Of a stretch of DNA of 45,026 nt, positions 24,571 to 26,202 are shown in pieces. The translations under genes and the position numbers were made by a program. Numbering within the stretch: position 1 is the stretch's first letter; each line of letters opens with the position of its first letter. The notes beneath the pieces are model-generated. The model did not search any database. It had not been told where the DNA came from and saw nothing but the letters and a program-made list of their open reading frames with translations. Source of the DNA: an uncultured Bacteroidales bacterium (GTDB taxonomy: Bacteria; Bacteroidota; Bacteroidia; Bacteroidales; F082); assembly GCA_900318465.1 (NCBI GenBank), contig ONKQ01000045.1, positions 1-45,026 on the forward strand, written 5' to 3'.

Positions 24571-24600
24571 TTGCGGGTATTGAAAAAAAGCCTATTTTTG
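24571..24600 (+). promoter_or_regulatory. Promoter of the tRNA locus
   Basis: TTG 24571-24573, a 19-base gap, then TATTTTTG 24593-24600: the best match to the Bacteroidota consensus in the window. Transcription would start near 24606, 15 bases before the tRNA-Ser. A strong promoter is expected for tRNA genes. Confidence 0.75.
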
Positions 24601-24620: not shown

Positions 24621-24701
24621 GGAGAGGTGGGTGAGTGGCTGAAACCAACAGTTTGCTAAACTGTCGTATCCAGCAATGGGTACCGGGGGTTCGAATCCCC
24701 C
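24621..24701 (+). tRNA. tRNA-Ser(GCU), 3' acceptor strand missing
   Basis: The 5' acceptor strand GGAGAGG, D arm, anticodon stem ACAGT/ACTGT around loop TTGCTAA (anticodon GCT), long class II variable arm, and T arm GGGGG-TTCGAAT-CCCCC are all present. The next seven bases should read about CCTCTCC to pair with GGAGAGG, but are CGCAGTC and cannot pair. Those bases instead belong to the D arm of the following tRNA-Pro. As written the molecule cannot form its acceptor stem, so this is a truncated gene or an assembly join. Confidence 0.88.
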
Positions 24702-24766
24702 CGCAGTCCGGCTAGCGCACCTGCTTTGGGAGCAGGGGGTCGAAGGTTCGAATCCTTTTGCCCCGA
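24702..24766 (+). tRNA. tRNA-Pro(UGG), 5' end missing
   Basis: From the D arm (CGCAGTCCGGCTAGCGC) onward the sequence is a normal tRNA-Pro: anticodon stem CCTGC/GCAGG around loop TTTGGGA (anticodon TGG at 24727-24729), T arm GAAGG-TTCGAAT-CCTTT, 3' acceptor strand TGCCCCG and discriminator A. About ten 5' bases (an acceptor strand near CGGGGCG plus TAG) are absent; the sequence directly joins the tRNA-Ser T stem. No CCA is encoded. Not functional as written. Confidence 0.88.
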
Positions 24767-24779
24767 CACACGAAACGAA

Positions 24780-24807
24780 AAGGAGCCTCGCGAAAGGCTC
24801 CTTTTTT
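24780..24807 (+). terminator. Intrinsic terminator of the tRNA locus
   Basis: A 9-bp stem AAGGAGCCT (24780-24788) with AGGCTCCTT (24795-24803), loop CGCGAA, and a run of six T ending at 24807. It may also serve the minus-strand TPR gene that ends at 24814, though the T run on that side is shorter. Confidence 0.9.
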
Positions 24808-24813
24808 GGTTGA

Positions 24814-26202
24814 TCATTCTCCTTCCATCAATTTCGAGAACGCCGCCCTTTCGCCATCATTCAACTGGTCTTTCACCCAACCCTCGAATGGTTGATTTTT
24901 CTTTGATTTATTGTAACAGCGTTTCATATTATCGAAATACAACTTAGCATCTGGATGTCGATAATCCCTGTTTAGCCATACTTTTATGGCTTTTACGAAA
25001 TAGCGCAACGCATTGAAGTGATCTCGCTTAGAATCAAATACAAATGCTAGGTTGTTGTAAGACGAGGCGGTGTCTGGATGGTCCTCACCCAACTTCGTTT
25101 CTCTTATCTCCAACGCCTTCTTATGATACTTCAACGCATTGTCATAGTCGCCCTTGGCATAATACACCCCTGCGATGTTGTTGTAGGTACAGGCAGTGTC
25201 TGGATGATTCTTACCCAACTTCGTTTCTTTTATCTCCAATGCCTTCATATAATACACCAACGCCCTGTCGTAGTCGCCCTTTTCATCATACATCACAGCA
25301 ATGTTGTTGTAAGTCTCGGAAGTGTCTATATGGTCCTTACCTAATTTTGTTTCTCTTATCTTCAATGCTTTTTCAAGGTATTTCAACGCCTCGTCATAGT
25401 CGTCCTTGAGCCAATATACACCCGCAATATTGCCGTATGTTGTGGCTGTGTAAAGATGTTCTTTGCCCAACTTGGTTTCACATTCTATCACAGCAGTTTT
25501 ATAGTAATCCAAAGCCCTATCATACTCACCCTTGGCTTCAAATGTTTTAGCGGTACTAATAATAGAAGCAATAGCTGATATTGCCAAAATTTCATCAGCA
25601 GATTGTTTAGCCTCTTTTGCACTTTTATTGGTTTGTTCAACAAGCTCCTTCAACTTTTTATCTTGTTCTTCCAATTTTTCTTCGTGTTCTTTAATGACCT
25701 CATCCGTTTTCTTATTAAACAAATAAGACACAGAGAAGATTATCACAGATATTAGCACACCAAAGAAAACGAGAATGGAATTAATGTGGGTCAAATAATT
25801 GGCATACAGCTGCTTGCTGTCGTCTTGTGCCTTGCTTAGCACAGAGGCATTCATGGCTTCCAACCGAGCCATTAAGGCATTGTGGTAATTCTGCCGTTCC
25901 AACGAGTCGAGCTTCCGTTTCAACACATTGTCGGTCGTGGTCGACGAATCGCCCACCCTTTGCATCTCGCCCATTTGCTCCAACCCAAAAACGGTCAGGG
26001 CATTCGATTCGGTCACCAACTTCATTTGCTCCTGCAATTCCGCAATGCGTTTGGCGTTTTCAGCATTGGATTCCTGCATTTTTCGGATTGAATAAAGCGA
26101 ATAGAGCGAGCAGGCCAACAGCAACAAAAGGACAGCCAACGAAGCGAATATCCATTTGAAATAGAACGTTGATTTCAATAACTTTGAATCCTTGTCTTCC
26201 AT
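24814..26202 (-). CDS. Membrane-anchored tetratricopeptide repeat protein (kinesin-light-chain-like TPRs)
   Basis: 462 residues. Two predicted membrane segments (about 15-38, WIFASLAVLLLLLACSLYSL, and about 133-155, SILVFFGVLISVIIFSVSYLF) flank a region likely outside the cytoplasm. A coiled coil follows (EEKLEEQDKKLKELVEQ), then four to five TPR units of exactly 42 residues with the kinesin-light-chain-like pattern YxxALxYxxKALxIxETKLGxxHxDTxxxYNNIA. Such proteins are protein-binding scaffolds; the partner is unknown. It is monocistronic, with its own promoter at 26222-26250. The unit length is so regular that the DNA shows a 126-bp tandem repeat. Confidence 0.85.
   Translation of the reverse strand: MEDKDSKLLKSTFYFKWIFASLAVLLLLLACSLYSLYSIRKMQESNAENAKRIAELQEQMKLVTESNALTVFGLEQMGEMQRVGDSSTTTDNVLKRKLDSLERQNYHNALMARLEAMNASVLSKAQDDSKQLYANYLTHINSILVFFGVLISVIIFSVSYLFNKKTDEVIKEHEEKLEEQDKKLKELVEQTNKSAKEAKQSADEILAISAIASIISTAKTFEAKGEYDRALDYYKTAVIECETKLGKEHLYTATTYGNIAGVYWLKDDYDEALKYLEKALKIRETKLGKDHIDTSETYNNIAVMYDEKGDYDRALVYYMKALEIKETKLGKNHPDTACTYNNIAGVYYAKGDYDNALKYHKKALEIRETKLGEDHPDTASSYNNLAFVFDSKRDHFNALRYFVKAIKVWLNRDYRHPDAKLYFDNMKRCYNKSKKNQPFEGWVKDQLNDGERAAFSKLMEGE
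25088..25465. repeat. 126-bp tandem repeats inside the TPR gene
   Basis: Three consecutive 126-bp units begin at 25088, 25214 and 25340, each opening with a variant of CCCAACTTCGTTTC, and a further partial unit starts at 25466. Each codes for one 42-residue TPR unit, so copy number could change without breaking the frame. Confidence 0.85.

Follow-up and report, generated by a model that had tools for sequence, protein, structure and literature searches.

The fusion of a tRNA-Ser(GCU) to a tRNA-Pro(UGG) in the window, the whole stretch of 45,026 nucleotides analysed here, is real in the given sequence but, as far as sequence comparison can tell, most likely not real in the organism, and we regard a local assembly error as its highly probable cause. 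The locus is most likely an ordinary one and not the site of a new kind of tRNA, and the living cell most likely possesses both tRNAs in intact form with a short spacer between them. An assembly error had been among the explanations offered by the sequence-only reading that first described the locus, and it is favoured by comparison with relatives; the interpretation given in that reading is, as a whole, partly supported.

The window represents contig 74 of 132 in a draft genome of 3.67 Mb, which is rated at a completeness of 98.87% and a contamination of 2.73%. Inspection of the letters at positions 24621–24766 (plus strand) confirmed that a tRNA-Ser(GCU) part runs directly into a tRNA-Pro(UGG) part. 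Of the tRNA-Ser, everything up to the first base beyond the T stem is present (24621–24702), and the rest of its 3' acceptor strand is absent. Its T arm is closed by six C at 24697–24702, five belonging to the T stem and one in addition, which places the end of the Ser part at 24702 and not at 24701, as initially read. The tRNA-Pro lacks its first 10 bases; it sets in at the D arm and is complete from there on (24703–24766). When compared with the best intact relatives, an 82-base prefix and a 65-base suffix of the locus match exactly and overlap by 1 base, a C, at the junction (24702–24703), where 55–56 bases are absent. The earlier description of a tRNA-Pro that is normal from the D arm onwards agrees with the exact suffix, and the stated loss of the Ser 3' acceptor strand, the spacer and about ten bases of tRNA-Pro is borne out by the missing bases, 10 of which belong to tRNA-Pro. 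The junction is free of N, and the tRNA bases that are kept are identical to those of intact relatives. Applied to the whole window, ARAGORN reported a single tRNA, a deformed tRNA-Ser at 24629–24709, and Rfam a single partial tRNA covering model positions 7–64 of 71.

Upstream of the tRNA-Ser, a TAnnTTTG element (TATTTTTG), which we take to be the Bacteroidota promoter motif, is located at 24593–24600 on the plus strand. The element was found in 53 of 53 loci scanned, a set that includes the window and some genomes twice and from which 2 of 55 loci had been dropped for too little upstream sequence. A sigma-70 scan at the locus yielded no strong promoter, but 2 weak sites as compared with a shuffled mean of 0.7. 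Situated 3' of the tRNA-Pro is a terminator-like hairpin (24778–24805), which the hairpin scan lists on the minus strand and whose T run was seen on the plus strand by reading the letters. The framing of the locus by a promoter and a terminator was thus confirmed for the TAnnTTTG element and the hairpin, whereas the attribute 'strong' is not supported by the weak sigma-70 sites. Further downstream, at 24814–26202 on the minus strand, lies a protein gene with internal repeats, presumably tetratricopeptide repeats.

Comparison with relatives, which had been proposed as a check, revealed the normal order of tRNA-Ser(GCU), a short spacer and tRNA-Pro(UGG) in intact form, and in addition breaks that recur at this locus and vary between the assemblies of relatives, as expected of an assembly error. 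An exact intact Ser 3' half is found in 75 of 99 genus genomes, of which 73 harbor a single copy and 2 (G066 and G079) two copies. A joined deletion occurs in five of the 99, comprising the genome of the window (G000) as well as G019, G029, G100 and G108. One further genome (G095) displays an N run starting in the Ser T loop, and in two (G010 and G118) the tRNA-Ser(GCU) is cut by a contig end. Exact searches for the Ser 3' half and for the anticodon arm both gave no match in 16 of the 99 (G003, G006, G008, G014, G026, G027, G028, G068, G071, G073, G077, G080, G094, G097, G113 and G114). The exact Ser anticodon arm is present in 82 of the 99 genomes, and an 83rd locus is provided by G035, where a contig ends just inside the anticodon-arm pattern.

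Each of the five joined deletions has a right end of its own; the overlap is 1, 1, 2 and 4 bases in four cases, and G029, as judged by eye, has none. In the four deletions outside the window, the left end is positioned in the T loop and the right end at or within the spacer, in four different places, so that the tRNA-Pro is left intact. Due to these left ends, a mobile element that integrated or excised at the 3' end of the tRNA was considered; since ordinary spacer or tRNA-Pro follows to the right of each junction, this reading was set aside. The exact junction of the window was found in none of the 98 other genus genomes, in none of 392 other genomes of the order (4 of which are also genus members) and in none of the viral contigs scanned, a set from which records near the genome of the window may be left out.

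Among the matches listed, 14 other genus genomes carry the 82 bases of the Ser part with 100% identity. Part of the tRNA-Ser was also matched exactly by 20 stretches from 19 genomes of a genome collection, among which the window's own record may be absent; the 19 are metagenome assemblies of uncultured Bacteroidales or Bacteroidia, several of them from rumen or abomasum by name. The spacer, by comparison, is variable. In one group of relatives (L040–L042, L046–L049, L052, L056, L060, L061 and others) it contains a hairpin with a T run that resembles an intrinsic terminator and leaves little room for a promoter of the tRNA-Pro. In another group (e.g. L039, L043, L050 and L053) the spacer comprises only 4–9 bases. 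RUG382 (G093; L068, L112) possesses both tRNAs in intact form and lacks the spacer hairpin, perhaps as a result of the same kind of assembly loss. Another assembly gap is observed in G090 (C106; L157), where an N run begins inside the tRNA-Pro(UGG) just after the tRNA-Ser(GCU).

Contig ends are likewise enriched at the locus. In 12 of 83 loci a contig end lies no more than 200 bases away, as against 0.98 expected from the sizes of the contigs. This count includes one locus per genome, with G066 represented by C102 and G079 by C105; the second copies on C100 (G066) and C95 (G079), both at contig ends, were left out. Within the genome of the window, 3 of 41 tRNA matches are incomplete, namely that of the window and two at contig ends. 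The latter are a tRNA-Leu(UAA) on C129 (L013), which stops two bases past the T stem, and a tRNA-Val(GAC) on C17 (L028), which stops four bases past it (anticodons assigned by eye); both thus terminate nearly where the Ser part of the window stops. In G029, a tRNA-Ser(UGA) on C74 (L163) is interrupted by N directly after GGGGGTTC, behind which a portion of another serine tRNA follows. Taken together, the contig-end stops in the genome of the window and the N in the tRNA-Ser(UGA) of G029 indicate that T arms are break sites in some assemblies.

In the four other genomes with a joined deletion, 140 of the 143 tRNA matches listed cover the full model and the remaining three are located at contig ends, which suggests that damage to tRNA genes is not random and that the fault is concentrated at the Ser-Pro locus. 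Even a match that spans the full model need not represent an intact gene: among the 140 is the N-interrupted tRNA-Ser(UGA) of G029. The 140 also include a tRNA-Asn(GUU)-like sequence of G029 (C41; L166) that seems to be shorter than usual between the anticodon and T arms and is not recognised by ARAGORN. The concentration of the fault at one locus is a counterpoint to the proposed assembly error, as a purely random error would not explain it, and the frequency of breaks at the Ser-Pro locus is not fully explained. Further counterpoints are the absence of N at the join, the unaltered state of the tRNA bases that are kept, and the completeness and contamination ratings of the draft.

A plausible course of events would nevertheless follow from the sequences themselves. 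Both tRNA sequences are near-identical across many species of the genus and the spacer is variable and, in part of the genus, provided with hairpins, so that a short-read assembler would meet a branching repeat. The assembler might then have stopped extending the left path where the Ser T arm ends, started the right path inside the tRNA-Pro, and joined both paths without the missing 55–56 bases, although the exact step can only be deduced. Such a scheme presumes that the genome of the window originates from short metagenome reads, and that the source reads would contain the missing bases.

Among 19 named genomes counted by hand, a joined deletion is present in 4 of 11 RUG or red-deer genomes (RUG11958, RUG13515, RUG13948 and Red_deer_4_mag_37) and in 0 of 8 others. 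A link of the deletions with particular studies or with one assembler is therefore weak and only suggestive, the genomes being too few for a conclusion. Some of the RUG numbers probably derive from an earlier study (PMC5830445). Judged by their names, the RUG and red-deer genomes would belong to a rumen compendium (PMC6785717) and a four-ruminant study (PMC7820578), both of which assembled single samples with IDBA-UD and used MEGAHIT for co-assembly. Local assembly errors occur in metagenome assemblies and, as stated in PMC7111523, are suspected to be especially pronounced with IDBA-UD, although probably no assembler is entirely free of them. Among the papers listed by literature searches none dealt with the Ser(GCU)-Pro(UGG) locus, and no wider claim is made here.

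Of the alternatives, a real and recent deletion that fused and killed both genes, with the cell living on intact copies outside the draft assembly, appears improbable. The tRNA-Ser(GCU) is normally essential. In seven open reading frames of the window, 88 of 286 serine codons are AGC or AGU and 21 of 158 proline codons are CCA, so that both tRNAs are presumably needed. The genome search suggested by the sequence-only reading retrieved neither an intact tRNA-Ser(GCU) nor an intact tRNA-Pro(UGG) from the draft. A covariance-model search, in which 150 of 182 candidates were scored, gave 41 tRNA matches and no second Ser(GCU) or Pro(UGG). ARAGORN, applied to the stretches around 40 of the 41 matches, named 38 tRNAs, among which neither Ser(GCU) nor Pro(UGG) appears; the two left unnamed are those cut by contig ends, and the 41st match is the window's own. 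DNA matching against the draft genome detected no second copy of either tRNA, and a single instance of the exact Ser anticodon arm was detected there. A pattern search tolerating up to 3 mismatches located the missing Ser 3' half only at two further serine tRNAs, one on C117 (2 mismatches) and one on C56 (3 mismatches), and the missing Pro 5' half nowhere in the draft genome. A split tRNA gene is likewise not supported, the missing halves being found nowhere else in the possibly incomplete draft. The supposition that intact copies exist elsewhere thus found no support in the draft assembly, which is itself incomplete for tRNAs: Ile(GAU), Ala(UGC) and Ser(UGA), all of which a cell needs, are also not among the tRNAs found, indicating that the draft loses tRNA genes in general. 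This loss lends the deletion some credit, since gene copies can evidently be missing from the draft, and a clean deletion with a one-base overlap would also be expected from illegitimate recombination. However, the single copy in 73 of the 75 genus genomes makes a spare copy unusual, deletions would have to have arisen separately in five species at the same essential gene, and the remaining tRNA parts display no decay.

It is very unlikely that the contig is a chimera of two genomes joined at shared tRNA sequence. Identity of the tRNA parts across many species would permit such cross-species joins, but the nearest relative, Tb.RUG.400 (G066), possesses the same genes upstream of the tRNA-Ser and downstream of the tRNA-Pro, though on two contigs. 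Its match to the downstream gene of the window amounts to 82% over 1473 bases (L114, with a shorter copy in L128) and was seen only in this genome among the loci compared, many flanks being too short to hold that gene; other relatives may share it. The upstream gene is matched with 78% over 2087 bases (L108), and many other genomes match it too among the matches listed. In Tb.RUG.400, tRNA-Ser, spacer and tRNA-Pro are intact, and the two contigs both end beside the tRNA-Ser. The matches of both flanks to Tb.RUG.400 thus agree with one kind of organism, whose assembly breaks at the same spot.

A real and working fused gene, whose chimeric Ser-Pro transcript is repaired or processed into usable tRNA, is hardly credible. 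In its favour are the intact anticodon arms of both tRNAs, the failure to find another copy, and the retained promoter element and terminator-like hairpin; the fused RNA is also predicted to fold more stably than 199 of 200 shuffled sequences (z -2.73), as the kept arms would give. The predicted fold, however, keeps the anticodon, variable and T arms of the tRNA-Ser and forms neither cloverleaf, and a comparison by eye shows no pairing between the 5' acceptor strand of the tRNA-Ser and the 3' acceptor strand of the tRNA-Pro. The failure to find the missing pieces elsewhere in the genome, the restriction of the junction to this one genome among those searched and the different stretches removed by the other four joined deletions likewise speak against the very unusual chimeric tRNA precursor that had been envisaged. 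A real fusion whose missing acceptor strands are restored after transcription, giving a working tRNA-Ser(GCU) and tRNA-Pro(UGG), is barely conceivable, such restoration not being known to us from any bacterium.

If the fusion were true, the bacterium would have a normally essential serine tRNA without its acceptor strand, for which partial parallels exist. Split tRNA genes of archaea lack tRNA parts at the gene's own place, as does the window locus, but in the window's draft genome the missing parts were not found elsewhere. Truncated or overlapping tRNAs with terminal editing, which occur mostly in mitochondria, are similar in that the acceptor stem is partly unencoded, as described in PMC4284800. 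In contrast to the tRNAs covered there, the window locus lacks 55–56 bases, affects two genes at once and occurs in one bacterial genome, and nothing at the locus indicates editing. The preferred explanation, a local assembly error, has its counterpart in metagenome assemblies, where, according to PMC7111523, repeats or related strains confuse the assembler and give rise to a short wrong consensus. The errors treated in that paper were identified by absent read support, whereas the present case was judged from assembled sequences. If, as is most likely, the fusion is such an error, it serves as a practical caution: draft metagenome assemblies can shorten or fuse a tRNA gene without leaving any N, so that an essential tRNA which seems to be lost or fused calls for a check of the reads first.
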